This document shows positions 3,018 through 28,274 of a DNA stretch of 38,777 nt, one piece after another (position 1 is the stretch's first letter; each line of letters begins with the position of its first letter). Made by a program: the position numbers and the translations under genes. The notes under the pieces are model-generated. The model was not told the DNA's origin. It ran no database searches and saw only the letters and a list, made by a program, of their open reading frames with translations. The DNA is taken from contig PYER01000028.1 of NCBI GenBank assembly GCA_003017855.1, positions 1 to 38,777 of the forward strand. The letters are read 5' to 3'. The stretch comes from a filamentous cyanobacterium CCT1 (GTDB lineage Bacteria; Cyanobacteriota; Cyanobacteriia; Phormidesmidales; Phormidesmidaceae).

Positions 3018-4005
3018 GGTGATCCCCGGCGATCGCGGTGAAAAACGCTTGGCGAATTGCGCACCGCGTGGCTCGACGGGGCCTCTTGTGCGTGGGGATC
3101 AGCGGACCTGGCGGAGCCTAACCCGGATTATTCACGAAACTAGCCATCAGCGACTGTCATTCCCGTGGCAACGGGAATCCATGGGAGGCAACTTACTCCA
3201 GAATAGATTCCCGCCTCCGCGGGAATGACGGACCTTTCAGTCAGCTCGTGAATAATGCAGGCTAACTGGAGGCCGGGGTATGGCCTATCCAGCCCAGCAT
3301 GAGGGCTTTTGGCGATTGGGAAAGACTGAATTCGGACCTTTTTTAAGCGGATAAAAATTAATATGAAATTGGCTTAAATAGCGTCAATACTGTTGATAAC
3401 ATAATGACCAAAAGCACTATTATGCATGAGTTACGCATTCAACCCATCTATCTCTGGTTGAACGCTTTTGCTGTGAGATCAGCGATCGCAGATTGCCCCT
3501 TGTAAGATTGGCTACAGAGGGTAGCGAGACAAGCGGTTACAGATGAATAGACAGCCCTGGGGATAGCCGCAGCGGCACCAGTTGGAGCCACCGAAATGAG
3601 CTTACGGAGTCGAGCTAGAGAAAAAAGATCTGCCGTCTCACCATCGGCGGCGATCGCAGCGTCAGGGTTACAAATTAGTAAGATTTACCCCTCGTTCCAC
3701 CCACCCACGGCAATACCTCTGAGGATGTCTAAAGCCGCATCTAGTCTGCCTTAGGCGCCAGGCCGCAAAGCCCAGCAAAAAATTCTGCTCAGCGAGGTTT
3801 GGTCTTATTCAATACAAATCATAGATTTGTTGAGGGGAGCTTTTTGGTTAGTGAAATTGCCCTTTTGGCTGTCGGTCTAAGGCAAAAAATCTATTCTAGA
3901 AAGCATCCGGAAGGCTGGGCCAATCAACAACGACGCTTTACACAAAATTTTGAGCACTTTTTCTTAAAACAGTTTAGCTAATTACTGCCGCTGCTTCCTT
4001 TTACC
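3018..4005. other. Gene-poor region of about 1 kb
   Basis: I see no convincing gene here. Open frames at 2953-3228 and 3799-3981 lack family resemblance, and the first one runs through the inverted-repeat element. The left part holds the nested repeat at 3127-3256. The stretch 3340-3480 is AT-richer than its neighbours. The remainder contains isolated HIP1-like octamers and presumably the promoter of the diguanylate cyclase gene, though no clear -35/-10 pair stands out. Confidence 0.6.
3127..3256. repeat. Nested inverted-repeat element around an ATTCCC double hairpin
   Basis: The outer arms are a perfect 11-bp inverted pair: ATTATTCACGA at 3127-3137 and its complement at 3246-3256. Inside, at 3156-3229, is a 74-base unit bounded by GTCATTCCCG and CGGGAATGAC. 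That unit has two hairpins, each with an 8-bp stem of ATTCCC-type arms and a 4-base loop. A second 74-base unit lies at 12546-12619. The 20-base core ATTCCC-N8-GGGAAT matches the form of the neisserial dRS3 repeat as I know it. The outer arms resemble a small non-autonomous element (MITE-like), but no clean target duplication is visible. Confidence 0.7.
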
Positions 4006-5802
4006 ATGCACTCTACTGACCAAAGCGCTGGGCTCAGTCTTCAAGATATTGAGCCCTTCGACCGCAGCATTATCGCTGCCGTTGAGAAAGCTGAAACCCT
4101 CTGGCGCATGCTGCAAACCGTACCCAACTTCACCCCAGAACTGCGTCAAAAAGCCCTGGAAGGGCTGCGACTCACCCTAGAAGAACTACAGGTTGCCCAC
4201 GAAGAACTGCAGGTGCAGCAGGAGGCCCTGATCGAAAAACACGATCAGATGGTGCTCAGCTACCAGCGCTACCAGGATCTATTTGAGTTTAGCCCTGAGG
4301 GGGCGCTGGTCACCGATGGCAGCGGGGTAATTTTGGCCGTCAACCAGGCTATGGCCCACCTGATTGGGGTGCCCCAGCGCTGGCTGGAGGGCAAGCCCCT
4401 GGCTACCTTTGTGCCCCTCGATCAGCGAGGGCCGTTTCGGCACTGGCTAAACCAGGTGCGGCAGGGGGCGCACACCAACCGGCGAGAGACCTATCTGCAG
4501 CGCCGCGATCGCGCCTGTCTGCCCGTAACCCTGAGCGTGCGGCGGTGCCAAGCGCCCTACGAAAACGAGCTGTGGTGGGCTGTGCAAGACCGCCGCGATC
4601 GCCACACCGCTGAGATTGCCATTCAGGCGGCCCAGCAGCAGCTAGAGCAAAAAGTGCAGGAGCGCACCGCCGCCCTCACCCAGGCCAACCAGCGCCTGGA
4701 GGCGGAGATCAAAGCGCGGCAGCAGGCCGAGCAGCGGCTGGAGTTTCAGGCCCAGCAGGAGCGACTGCTGCAGGCGATGGCCCAGCGCATTCGCAGTTCG
4801 CTAGAGCTTGACCAGGTGCTCAGCGCCACCGTCGAAGAGATTCAGCAGCTGCTAAAGGTAGACCGGGTGCTGATTTTGCGGTTTCTGGCCGACGGCAGCA
4901 AAGAAGTGGCTACCGAGGCACGCACCCGCTGCTGCCAATCGCTGCTGGCCCAAACCTTTCGTGAGCCCTGCCTGAGCGGTCAGGTGGTGGCGCAGTACGG
5001 CCAGCGGGGCGGGCGGGCGATCGCCGACATTTTGGCCTCTGATCTACAGCCCTGCCTGGTCGAGACGCTGACCCTGCTGGAGGTGCGCGCGCTGCTGGTG
5101 GTGCCAATTTTGCAGGAACCGTCGCCCGCAGACCCCGCCCAAAACGACCGGGTCTGGGGGCTGCTAATTGCTCACCACTGCCACGGCCCCCGCCCCTGGC
5201 CCGACCACGAGCAAACCCTGCTGCAGCGCCTGGCCACCCAGGTCAGCATTGCGATTCAGCAGTCGGCTCTGCACGCCGAAACCCAGCGGCTGGCGGTGGT
5301 CGATGGCCTGACCCAGGTGGCCAACCGGCGCAAGTTTGACACCTACTTGAGCAAGATGTGGAAGCAACATCTGCGCGACCAGACCCCGCTGGCGCTGGTG
5401 CTGGCCGACATCGATTTCTTTAAGCTCTACAACGACACCTACGGGCACCAGAGCGGCGATCGCTGCCTGCGCACCATTGCCGACAGCCTCAAAGCGCAGA
5501 TCAAACGGCCCCAAGACTTGGTCGCCCGCTACGGCGGTGAAGAGTTTGCCGCCATTTTGCCCCAGACCAGTCTGGCCGGGGCTCAGTTTTTGGCGGCAAC
5601 CTGCCTAACCCACATTCAGGGTCTAAACCTGTCGCATTCCAGTTCGCCGCTGCGGGTGTTAACCTTGAGCTTTGGGGTGGCAAGCCTGGTTCCTACCGGC
5701 GACCAGCGGGTCGAAAACCTGGTGCAAATGGCCGATCAAGCGCTATACGAGGCCAAAGCCAGAGGGCGTAACCAGGTGGTTACCTGGCCAATTGACCGCT
5801 AA
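4006..5802 (+). CDS. Diguanylate cyclase with PAS and GAF domains
   Basis: The protein makes cyclic di-GMP from two GTP molecules. It has 598 residues. In order: an N-terminal helical region with EEL coiled-coil repeats (about 45-85), a PAS domain (about 86-190, from YQDLFEFSPEGALVTD), a coiled coil (about 205-250), a GAF domain (about 255-430), and a GGDEF domain (about 430-598). The active-site motif is GGEEF at 510-514. An RxxD inhibitory site (RPQD, 501-504) sits exactly five residues before it, so product inhibition is expected. It has no signal peptide or membrane helices, so it is likely a soluble sensor. The input region is clearly paralogous to that of the histidine kinase downstream, which begins 124 bases after this stop on the same strand. 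The signal sensed is unknown. Confidence 0.93.
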   Translation: MHSTDQSAGLSLQDIEPFDRSIIAAVEKAETLWRMLQTVPNFTPELRQKALEGLRLTLEELQVAHEELQVQQEALIEKHDQMVLSYQRYQDLFEFSPEGALVTDGSGVILAVNQAMAHLIGVPQRWLEGKPLATFVPLDQRGPFRHWLNQVRQGAHTNRRETYLQRRDRACLPVTLSVRRCQAPYENELWWAVQDRRDRHTAEIAIQAAQQQLEQKVQERTAALTQANQRLEAEIKARQQAEQRLEFQAQQERLLQAMAQRIRSSLELDQVLSATVEEIQQLLKVDRVLILRFLADGSKEVATEARTRCCQSLLAQTFREPCLSGQVVAQYGQRGGRAIADILASDLQPCLVETLTLLEVRALLVVPILQEPSPADPAQNDRVWGLLIAHHCHGPRPWPDHEQTLLQRLATQVSIAIQQSALHAETQRLAVVDGLTQVANRRKFDTYLSKMWKQHLRDQTPLALVLADIDFFKLYNDTYGHQSGDRCLRTIADSLKAQIKRPQDLVARYGGEEFAAILPQTSLAGAQFLAATCLTHIQGLNLSHSSSPLRVLTLSFGVASLVPTGDQRVENLVQMADQALYEAKARGRNQVVTWPIDR

Positions 5803-10643: not shown

Positions 10644-12488
10644 GTGACTGCCGATTTAGAAAATAACGCCGACTTTGATGCCCTGCTCGACTACGTACGC
10701 ACCAGTCGAGGGTTTGACTTTACCGGCTACAAGCGCTCCAGCCTAATGCGTCGAGTGGGTCGCCGTATGCAGGCCGCTGGGGTCAACACCTTTATCGACT
10801 ACATCGACTATTTAGAGGTGCATCCCAACGAGTTTCAGCAGTTGTTTAACACGCTACTGATCAACGTCACCTCGTTTTTTCGTGACCCCACCGCCTGGGA
10901 TACGCTGCGCACCGATATTTTGCCCGCCATTCTGCGCACCAAAGACGATCAGGACATGATTCGGGTGTGGAGCGCTGGCTGCGCTTCAGGCGAAGAAGCG
11001 TACTCCATCGCCATTTTGTTGGCCGAACTGATCGGCATTGACGCATTTCAGGAACGGGTCAAAATTTATGCCACCGATCTCGATGATGATGCCCTGACCG
11101 AGGCTCGTCAGGCCACCTATTCTCAGCAAAAGGTAGAGGGGCTGACGGCCACCCAGCGCGAGCAGTTTTTTGAGTGCAAAGAAGGGCTTTATACCTTTCG
11201 CAAAGATCTGCGCCGCCTGGTCATTTTTGGTCGCCACGACCTGATTCAAGATGCCCCCATTTCTAAGGTCGATTTGCTGCTGTGCCGCAACACATTGATG
11301 TATTTCAATGCTGAAACCCAGAGCCGAATTTTGGCCCGGTTTCACTTTGCCCTGCGCGACAGTGGTTACCTATTTTTGGGCAAAGCCGAAATGCTGCTCA
11401 CCCACAGCAATATGTTTAGCCCGGTGCAGCTAAAGGGGCGAATTTTTTCTAAGGTGCCCCGGACCAATGTGCGCGATCGCCTGCTGATTATGGCCCAAAC
11501 CGGCAGCGAAGACGCCGCCGACCATCTCTCCGACCAGATTCGGCTGCGCGAGGCCGCCTTTGACATCAGCCCCGTGGCCCGCATTGTGCTAGACCAGAGC
11601 GGTACTCTCGTGATGGCCAACCAGCGGGTGCGGGTGCTGTTTGGCCTCTCCCAGCGCGATGTGGGGCGTCCCCTGCAAGATTTAGAACTCTCCTATCGCC
11701 CGGTAGAGCTGCGATCGTGCCTCGAAGAGGCCTACCAAAACCGCCGCACCGTCAGCCTCTCAGATGTCGCCTGGCAAAACTCCCGAGGCGAAGCCGTCTT
11801 TCTAGAGGTGCTGGTTACTCCCCTCTTTGGCGAAGACAGCGCCATTTTGGGGGCCAGCGTGAGCTTTCTTGATGTCACCCGGTTTAAGCGCTTGCAGGCC
11901 GAACTAGAGCACTCCAACCAGGAGCTAGAAATGGCCTACGAAGAGCTGCAGTCGACCAACGAAGAACTCGAAACCACCAACGAAGAACTCCAGTCGGCCA
12001 ACGAAGAGCTCGAAACCACCAACGAAGAACTCCAGTCCACCAACGAAGAACTGGAGACCATGAACGAAGAACTCCAGTCGGCCAACGAAGAACTGCAAAC
12101 CGTCAACGACGAACTGCAGCGCCGCAGCGAAGACCTCAACCACAGCAACGCCTTTTTAGAATGCGTCTTCACCAGCCTCAAGGGAGGCGTTGTCGTCGTC
12201 AATCACGACTTTCAGGTGCAGATCTGGAACCAAAAAGCCCAAGACCTCTGGGGCCTGCGCCCCGAAGAAGCCGTCGGCCAAAACTTTCTCAACCTCGATA
12301 TCGGCCTGCCGGTAGCGCAGCTGCGCCAGCCCATTCGCGAATGTCTCGCCCTCACCGACGGCAGCGCTGTCGAAGTCGTGCTCGAAGCAGTCAACCGCAA
12401 GGGCCGCCAAATTAGCTGCAAAGTGATCTGCACCCCCCTGATGAATTCTGAAAATCAGGCCCAGGGCGTAATCGTAATCATGGAATAG
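10644..12488 (+). CDS. cheR: CheR methyltransferase fused to two PAS domains
   Basis: This is a SAM-dependent glutamate methyltransferase fused to sensor modules, 614 residues. The CheR N-domain covers about 10-65 and the methyltransferase core about 70-280, with SAM motif I (VWSAGCASGEEAYS, from about 107) and the CRNTLMYF motif near 214. A first PAS domain lies at about 300-420, an EEL coiled coil at about 430-492 made of heptads such as ELETTNE and ELQSANE, and a second PAS domain at about 500-612. The protein ends with the second PAS; in related proteins a kinase domain often follows, and none is present. The start is GTG at 10644, three bases after the preceding cheB stop. A soluble, PAS-controlled methylation module is the likely role. 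Confidence 0.9.
   Translation: MTADLENNADFDALLDYVRTSRGFDFTGYKRSSLMRRVGRRMQAAGVNTFIDYIDYLEVHPNEFQQLFNTLLINVTSFFRDPTAWDTLRTDILPAILRTKDDQDMIRVWSAGCASGEEAYSIAILLAELIGIDAFQERVKIYATDLDDDALTEARQATYSQQKVEGLTATQREQFFECKEGLYTFRKDLRRLVIFGRHDLIQDAPISKVDLLLCRNTLMYFNAETQSRILARFHFALRDSGYLFLGKAEMLLTHSNMFSPVQLKGRIFSKVPRTNVRDRLLIMAQTGSEDAADHLSDQIRLREAAFDISPVARIVLDQSGTLVMANQRVRVLFGLSQRDVGRPLQDLELSYRPVELRSCLEEAYQNRRTVSLSDVAWQNSRGEAVFLEVLVTPLFGEDSAILGASVSFLDVTRFKRLQAELEHSNQELEMAYEELQSTNEELETTNEELQSANEELETTNEELQSTNEELETMNEELQSANEELQTVNDELQRRSEDLNHSNAFLECVFTSLKGGVVVVNHDFQVQIWNQKAQDLWGLRPEEAVGQNFLNLDIGLPVAQLRQPIRECLALTDGSAVEVVLEAVNRKGRQISCKVICTPLMNSENQAQGVIVIME
11935..12120 (+). repeat. DNA repeats encoding the EEL heptad coil
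   Basis: Units of 21 bases, most alike at a 42-base period, encode alternating ELETTNE and ELQSxNE heptads inside the CheR-PAS gene. The near-identical codons suggest recent expansion or gene conversion, and the coil length could vary between strains. Confidence 0.8.
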
Positions 12489-26396: not shown

Positions 26397-28160
26397 ATGA
26401 AAAACTTTACCTTCCCCAGCTGCCCCCTAATGGCGGAGGGATTAGTGCCTTCAGAAGCCGTTCCAGCCGACCCCGACAGCAGCACTTTGGTTGCCGATAT
26501 TGCCGTCTCGCCGGAGTGCAGTATTCGTCTCTTTAATGCTGGAGACACCATTTTTACAGAAGGCAGTTCCGCCGATCGCGCCTACATTATTGAGTCGGGC
26601 TACGTCGAAATTTTTGTGGGTTCGGGGGAAGACTCCCTGCAGCTCAACGTGCTGGGACCTGGCGATATTTTTGGCGAGATGGGCATTATCGATGCTGCCC
26701 CCCGATCGGCCTCTGCTAAGGCTCTTTGCCCCTGCCGCTGCATTGTAGTAGCTGCGGCCCAGGTGGCTGAGCGCATAGAGTCGTCGTCACCGATGGTGCG
26801 GTTGTTCATTTCTATGTCGCTGCATCGCAACCGCGCCTACAATGCCTACCTCAAAGCGTTAGCCACCCCCCACGTAAGCCTGCCCAGCCCCGCCGTTTCC
26901 GAAAAAGCCTACGCTAAAAACCAGCAGTATCAGCAAATTTTAGACGACATCAAATTGGAAGCCGATCTGCAAAATGCCGTTCGCAATGACGAGCTTTTTC
27001 TGGTCTACCAGCCCCTGCTAAACCTGCACGATCAGAGGGTGGTCGGGTTTGAGTCACTGCTGCGGTGGCAATGCCCCCAGCGCGGTCTGGTAAATCCGCA
27101 ACAGTTCATTGCCCTGGCGGAAGAAACCACGCTGATTTTGCCCATGGGTGACTGGATATTAGAGCATTCCTGTGCCGATTTGCGGCGGTTTCAAGACCAG
27201 CTCGATCGCATTGGTCAGGGCAACGCCGATTTGTTTATTAGCATCAATATTTCGGTGCGACAGTTTCAGCAGCCCGACTTTTTTGAGCGACTGATGGCCT
27301 GCACCGAGCGCCATCGGGTCAGGGCCCAGCAAATTAAGCTGGAGGTGACTGAGCGCGTCTTTTTAAACGAGATAGAAGCGATTGATTCGATTGGCAAGTG
27401 TCGGGCCGCCGGGTTCGAGGTTTCGCTCGACGACTTTGGCACCGGCTACTCCAGCCTCAACTACCTGGAGCGCTGCGAAATTGACTGCCTTAAGATCGAC
27501 CAGTCCTTTATTCAAAAGCTGTGCACCAGCGATCGCGCCAAAATTTTGGTTAGCTCTATCATCGATATCGCCCGCAAGCTGGGCCTGCCCACCGTGGCCG
27601 AAGGCATTGAAACTCCGGCCCAGATGGCGGCCCTGCAGGCGATGGGCTGTGACATTGGCCAGGGGTTTTTATTCAGCCATCCCCTGCCGCTGACTGAGGC
27701 GCTAGGGCTGGTGGGCCAGCCCCTGGCGATCGCCCCTGCTAGCCCCGGGCGATCGCCCCTGCTAACCCCGCCTAGACCGACCGGCAGCGATCGCCACCTG
27801 ACGGTTCGGCAGCAGCCCTCGCTGGGCCAGGTAGTCCTGCAGCTGGCGCGGCGTCATTTTGCACAGGTCTTTGGCCAGCTCCTGCACCTGGAGACGCCCG
27901 GTAGCCCCCGCGGAGCAATCGCGCAAAATTCCCAAAATCTGCGGCTCTGCCACCAGCACCAGGGTATTGAGTTGATAGGCTGCCGCCAGAGATTCTATCT
28001 GCGCCCCAATCGCCTGAGCAAAGCGGCGCTCAAATTCCACCAAATGATTGCCCCGGTGGTCGTCGTAGCTATGCCCCCCGCCGCCGCTGCCCCGGTTGCG
28101 GCCCGTTTTGGTGTTGGCCCACAAGTCTTGGCCCGCCATCTCTATCGCTGGGTTAAGTAG
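26397..28160 (+). CDS. cNMP-binding/EAL phosphodiesterase with runaway C-terminus
   Basis: The 587-residue frame has a cyclic-nucleotide-binding domain (about 35-155) and an EAL domain (about 185-445). The cNMP domain has FGEMGIIDAAPRSASA, retaining the Glu, Arg and Ser used to bind the nucleotide. The EAL domain has the signature as ESLLRW (Glu219), NISVRQF, LEVTER, DDFGTGYSSL, KIDQSF and AEGIET, so c-di-GMP hydrolysis is expected. After HPLPLTEALGLVGQPL there is no homology: residues from about 452 are a shadow of the minus-strand gene at 27762-28274. A 23-base tandem duplication (27725-27770) shifts the frame here. With one copy removed, the frame would end at TAG 27772-27774, giving about 451 residues. 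The start is the ATG at 26397. Confidence 0.88.
   Translation: MKNFTFPSCPLMAEGLVPSEAVPADPDSSTLVADIAVSPECSIRLFNAGDTIFTEGSSADRAYIIESGYVEIFVGSGEDSLQLNVLGPGDIFGEMGIIDAAPRSASAKALCPCRCIVVAAAQVAERIESSSPMVRLFISMSLHRNRAYNAYLKALATPHVSLPSPAVSEKAYAKNQQYQQILDDIKLEADLQNAVRNDELFLVYQPLLNLHDQRVVGFESLLRWQCPQRGLVNPQQFIALAEETTLILPMGDWILEHSCADLRRFQDQLDRIGQGNADLFISINISVRQFQQPDFFERLMACTERHRVRAQQIKLEVTERVFLNEIEAIDSIGKCRAAGFEVSLDDFGTGYSSLNYLERCEIDCLKIDQSFIQKLCTSDRAKILVSSIIDIARKLGLPTVAEGIETPAQMAALQAMGCDIGQGFLFSHPLPLTEALGLVGQPLAIAPASPGRSPLLTPPRPTGSDRHLTVRQQPSLGQVVLQLARRHFAQVFGQLLHLETPGSPRGAIAQNSQNLRLCHQHQGIELIGCRQRFYLRPNRLSKAALKFHQMIAPVVVVAMPPAAAAPVAARFGVGPQVLARHLYRWVK
27725..27770 (+). repeat. 23-bp tandem duplication containing HIP1
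   Basis: The units 27725-27747 and 27748-27770 match at 22 of 23 positions and each contains GGCGATCGCC. Twenty-three is not a multiple of three, so the duplication changes the reading frame of the EAL gene and hides the TAG at 27772. The stop codon of the opposite gene lies inside the second unit. Confidence 0.9.
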
Positions 28161-28274
28161 TTCGCAACGTTCGGTCAGGTCAGGACCAGACTCTAACTCG
28201 GGGGCGTCCAGGGGTTCTAACGTTAAGAACCGGGCTTTGGCACCATCCACTACGGCTACGAGGAAGCGAGTCAT
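27762..28274 (-). CDS. Host-attachment-like protein
   Basis: The 170-residue product resembles the family named host attachment protein (PF10116-type), whose cellular role is unclear despite the name. Typical segments are the opening FLVAVVDGAKARFLTLEPL, the basic/His patch with GGGHSYDDHRGNHLVEFERRFAQAI, LVLVAEPQILGILRD, and the C-terminal ELAKDLCKMTPRQLQDYLAQRGLLP. An SD-like GGAGATCC lies just before the ATG at 28274. Its 3' 399 bases overlap the antisense C-terminal extension of the EAL gene; the homology shows that this strand is the genuine coding one there. Confidence 0.85.
   Translation of the reverse strand: MTRFLVAVVDGAKARFLTLEPLDAPELESGPDLTERCELLNPAIEMAGQDLWANTKTGRNRGSGGGGHSYDDHRGNHLVEFERRFAQAIGAQIESLAAAYQLNTLVLVAEPQILGILRDCSAGATGRLQVQELAKDLCKMTPRQLQDYLAQRGLLPNRQVAIAAGRSRRG

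Follow-up and report, generated by a model that had tools for sequence, protein, structure and literature searches.

A 23-bp tandem duplication and a long antisense extension at the 3' end of a cyanobacterial EAL-domain gene

When an open reading frame (ORF) exceeds the length of its orthologues and runs on, antisense, through most of an intact convergent neighbour, it can be asked (i) what removed the usual stop codon, (ii) whether the change is genuine, and (iii) whether the added C-terminal tail has any meaning. Such a locus is found in the window considered here, i.e., the whole stretch of 38,777 nucleotides that was analysed, which is one contig (C320) of the 546-contig, 6.85-Mb draft assembly of the filamentous cyanobacterium CCT1. 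Judged by the EAL gene, the nearest relatives of this organism are Nodosilinea-type cyanobacteria. The original prediction, made from the DNA letters, was that a 23-bp tandem duplication had shifted the frame of this gene close to its end.

The duplicated unit and the bypassed stop codon

The features of the locus are collected in Table 1. The two units had been described as matching at 22 of 23 positions and as containing the HIP1 octamer, and both points hold on the sequence, the sole difference being G27742 vs. A27765 and the octamer being present in each copy. Tandem Repeats Finder delimits the repeat at 27718-27770 (period 23, 2.3 copies, 93% matches), which is also the span of the self-match at an offset of 23, with two mismatches; an alternative repeat phase, i.e., 27718-27740 and 27741-27763, likewise gives 22 matches of 23 (mismatch T27724/G27747). 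Considering tandem periods of 20 to 60 bp with at most one mismatch, one is present in the window, vs. none in any of 40 order-1 Markov windows. No dispersed element is involved, since across the 6.85 Mb the 22-letter pattern of the unit matches both window sites and one further site, with two mismatches, on another contig. Elsewhere in the window, an array of 21/42-bp repeats (consensus ACGAAGAACTCCAGTCCACCA), whose period is a multiple of three, occupies 11938-12119.

Table 1. Coordinates of the features at the 3' end of the EAL gene (positions in the window).
Feature	Position	Strand	Remarks
cNMP-binding + EAL protein ORF	26397..28160	+	587 aa as assembled; 451 aa in one-unit relatives
First 23-bp unit	27725..27747	+	with HIP1 GCGATCGC
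Second 23-bp unit	27748..27770	+	with HIP1; extra unit shifts the frame; single unit in LEGE 06152 and LEGE 07298
Former EAL-gene stop TAG, now out of frame	27773..27775	+	L034 and L035, the one-unit relatives, stop at the aligned TAG (4354-4356)
Added tail portion past the former stop	27776..28160	+	codon-on-codon antisense to the neighbour; terminal TAG 28158-28160
Convergent neighbour, Host_attach (PF10116) / baeRF family 12-like	27762..28274	-	intact, 170 aa

As 23 is not a multiple of three, the normal TAG is bypassed. With either unit deleted, the frame had been predicted to end at a TAG placed at 27772-27774; the ending itself is borne out by one-unit relatives with products of 451 aa, while the position had been given one base short, the codon lying at 27773-27775. 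The accompanying claim of a run-on of about 136 codons to 28160, over the 3' three quarters of a host-attachment-like gene, agrees with the assembled sequence, where the ORF represents a net gain of 136 residues over the one-unit product and covers 399 of the 513 bp (78%) of the minus-strand gene (27762-28160). From one-unit relatives to the window, the convergent overlap grows from 14 bp to 399 bp.

The EAL gene and its orthologues

In the encoded protein, Pfam recognises a cNMP_binding domain (44-128) followed by an EAL domain (189-429). Among solved proteins, the nearest is Bd1971 of Bdellovibrio (6hq5; E 2.9e-90 over residues 50-438), described as a cAMP-sensing c-di-GMP phosphodiesterase with full-length homologues stated to occur in cyanobacteria (PMC6717892). 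The cAMP-binding residues given in that source for Bd1971, namely E58, M59, R67, S68, and R108 (PMC6717892), align with E94, M95, R103, S104, and R144 here, and its catalytic pair D306/D307 aligns with D345/D346, the Bd1971 numbering being offset by 4, as we fixed by means of this Asp pair. All seven residues are invariant in a 12-row orthologue alignment; a further capping residue of Bd1971, L109, corresponds to N145 here and is not conserved. The protein thus resembles Bd1971 in its domain order, the extent of the match, and the retention of the cAMP-contact residues and catalytic Asp pair, but differs by its cyanobacterial host, a longer N-terminal region and the extra tail, its activity and ligand being predicted from sequence. 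It is a predicted cAMP-gated c-di-GMP phosphodiesterase of the Bd1971 type. The conserved enzyme ends just before the mutation, and its core is present intact in the frame and should be unaffected, since the frameshift follows all aligned cAMP-contact and catalytic residues. At E up to 1e-130, a gene of this type (window 26397-27716) occurs in 22 of the 26 compared genomes of the genus, its own included.

The orthologue comparison covered 24 loci, namely the window and 23 others on distinct contigs, one per genome, leaving out G005 (L027/L048, a fragment without C-terminus) and loci below 50% identity. Two loci with disrupted frames were excluded from the length count, i.e., that of Shackletoniella antarctica ULC041 (L044), whose EAL domain is interrupted by an in-frame TAG (3640-3642), and L024 (G024), with an apparent frameshift near 2445. 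This gives 21 intact loci; in L008, L042, L045, L046, L022, and L023, where the match starts inside the query, length was counted from the query position.

All 21 end at ~438-455 aa, vs. 587 aa in the window, and past residue ~438 the orthologous sequences are variable. A single unit in close relatives had been proposed as a check, and it is found in the two relatives with an alignable junction, i.e., Nodosilinea LEGE 06152 (92% identical; C-terminus ...QPLAIAPVNPA*) and LEGE 07298 (89% identical; ...QPLAIAPINPA*), which stop at 451 aa on a TAG aligning with the bypassed one. With two relatives carrying one unit and ending at the predicted TAG, the recent-looking C-terminal frameshift announced by the original prediction, together with the long convergent overlap that it creates, is supported as lineage-specific. 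Relatives with both units and a conserved tail, named beforehand as the finding that would speak against it, were also sought; none of the 21 intact orthologues has the tail. In CCP3 (L033), the closest relative by the EAL gene (96%, dS 0.30), the junction (4320-4400) is differently arranged and the protein ends ...QPLAIE*; with this further junction, the end of the EAL gene is, judging from the sequences compared, labile in general.

Origin of the second unit

The second unit is very probably a real, recent and lineage-specific tandem duplication of the slippage type, by which the gene was extended at its 3' end. The event would be a recent one, placed where the coding sequence of a cNMP-gated EAL phosphodiesterase comes to its extreme 3' end. 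Direct evidence for the one-unit state comes from two relatives, since the CCP3 junction is arranged differently, and two units are seen in one genome only. That this genome is a single draft of 546 contigs, and that every other intact orthologue has the usual length, would also fit an assembly or sequencing error, in which case the organism would truly carry one unit and produce a normal 451-aa protein. Such an error is unlikely. A pure assembly slip is made less likely by the one-base difference between the two copies, as a unit would have to be added and a substitution as well, and an exact assembly loop would presumably not give this difference. Moreover, a typical read is longer than the 46 bp that both units occupy, which counts against misassembly.

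For the duplication as a genuine mutation, the simplest route would be mispairing of slipped strands at short direct repeats of the form A[G/A]CCCC, lying 23 bp apart in the one-unit relatives. In both of these, the CCCC core of this motif, repeated directly at that distance, brackets the unit; it is only suggestive as a slippage substrate, since chance often produces runs of at least four matches at a spacing of 23 bp, with 140 of them in the window. Exact CCCC slippage would require two later substitutions, and a breakpoint with less homology would require one. The resulting frame shift would bypass the TAG, and translation would proceed antisense through the neighbour up to its first TTA, CTA or TCA codon. 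We infer the slippage route itself, as well as the production of an extended protein.

It had also been suggested that HIP1 drives the duplication, HIP1-bearing segments being prone to slippage. Besides the octamer in each unit, a 13-bp HIP1 unit is repeated three times in tandem in a sample of Nodosilinea nodulosa PCC 7104 (L118 14750-14790), and an association of HIP1 with both site-specific and illegitimate recombination has been reported (PMC4390886). In the window, one of three tandem duplications contains HIP1 vs. 0.13 expected (P 0.13), that one being the 23-bp duplication which prompted the question. A survey of 400 kb of this congener (G008) tells otherwise: after removal of five runs of N from the 58 tandem stretches listed, HIP1 occurs in 2 of 53 tandem duplications vs. 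1.80 expected with at most one mismatch, and in 2 of 141 vs. 4.19 expected with at most two, duplications with a period of at least 20 bp numbering one and five in the respective sets. In the genome of CCT1 itself (G000), which has 8024 HIP1 sites (205 in the reversed-read control), pairs separated by a gap of 2-30 bp number 213, somewhat below the ~272 expected, a value that we calculated from the 8024 sites under uniform spacing and that supersedes the 412 derived from the HIP1 density of the window. With neither an enrichment in duplications nor an excess of close pairs, HIP1 was rejected as the driver, a role that is highly improbable.

The antisense tail and the convergent neighbour

The Host_attach gene was compared at 18 of the 24 loci, i.e., the window and 17 others (L044, L045, L046, L022, L023, and L024 being left out). 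In L038 and L042 no Host_attach gene occurs within the stretch examined, and a convergent Host_attach/baeRF-like gene accompanies the EAL gene in 15 of the 17 other loci. The product has 170 aa in the window, as it does in the four relatives that this gene places nearest, and 168-172 aa in the other 11. In LEGE 06152 and LEGE 07298 the convergent genes overlap by 14 bp; at the remaining 13 of the 15 loci, a gap of 8 to 140 bp lies between them.

The tail frame coincides codon on codon with that of the neighbour, in which a stop requires a TTA, CTA or TCA sense codon, and these three codons together account for 1.8% of all codons of the window and 2.0% of those of the congener sample. Counted from the 3' end of the neighbour, the frame is open to codon 132 in the window. 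An in-register antisense frame open for at least 132 codons from the 3' end is found in 30 of 252 long ORFs in the congener sample and 2 of 24 in the window, these being non-overlapping ORFs of at least 160 aa rather than annotated genes; the Host_attach gene is probably absent from the 24, outranked by the 587-aa ORF under the non-overlap rule. Among the 15 other Host_attach orthologues, the antisense frame closes before codon 132 in 13, the four nearest included, with a first stop at codon 57 in CCP3, LEGE 06152, and G025 and at codon 75 in LEGE 07298; in the other two (L037 and L009) it is open at least as far as in the window, without any extension of the EAL gene. The tail thus lacks conservation, the frame closing earlier in the nearest relatives, and its length is unremarkable given the equally open antisense frames among the sampled ORFs. 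The "novel tail" of the original prediction is therefore better seen as the default read of a stop-poor antisense frame than as a new domain, and it is probably meaningless, a neutral or mildly harmful ballast as far as can be inferred.

Were the mutation expressed, the antisense-encoded tail of ~136 residues might alter the stability or dimerisation of the phosphodiesterase, a new C-terminus then having been gained by overprinting, which is very unlikely. Predicted pLDDT is below 50 over residues 446-587, and equally so over 1-173, which includes the known cNMP domain (whole-ORF mean 50.0, from a 12-row alignment). That the tail would be a new functional C-terminal region kept by selection, as the opening of the frame to codon 132 past the stops of the four nearest Host_attach relatives might suggest, is extremely improbable considering its absence from the 21 intact orthologues, a length ordinary for this antisense phase, the lack of any Pfam match to the tail up to E 0.1, and codon 57, which is TTG in the window and also in the tail-less LEGE 07298, so that the missing stop need not have been selected.

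The EAL-gene case belongs to a known class, the 3'-end extension. In the classification of Palleja et al. (2008), class iii comprises 3'-end extensions by frameshift or stop mutation, which account for 124 of 178 convergent overlaps longer than 60 bp and are there filed as misannotations (PMC2478687). As in that class, the gene exceeds its orthologues in length (587 vs. ~438-455 aa) by an extension at the 3' end, convergent over an intact neighbour of the same 170 aa as in the nearest relatives, with an extra 23-bp unit putting the TAG out of frame. Unlike the class as described there, the causative duplication was identified via the one-unit relatives, and a real mutation rather than a misannotation is possible. 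Overprinted antisense genes have also been reported in bacteria, as separate genes for which there is evidence of transcription or translation (PMC4683798, PMC7103648); the present case shares with these reports an open frame antisense to an established gene, but concerns a putative C-terminal extension. It illustrates cleanly how a convergent overlap of 14 bp can become one of 399 bp through a single small tandem duplication that is out of frame. In GC-rich genomes, long antisense extensions should not be read as new domains, because a scarcity of TTA, CTA, and TCA codons often leaves the in-register antisense frame open. Regarding annotation, the length of 587 aa deserves a flag.

As to the neighbour itself, the 3' 300 bp of the Host_attach gene (window 27762-28061) are closer to LEGE 07298 (89.0%) than to CCP3 (84.3%), whereas over the remaining 213 bp CCP3 is again the closest (95.3%). 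The divergence of CCP3 in the 3' 300 bp may reflect either the exchange of a short tract or a segment that changes fast in CCP3.
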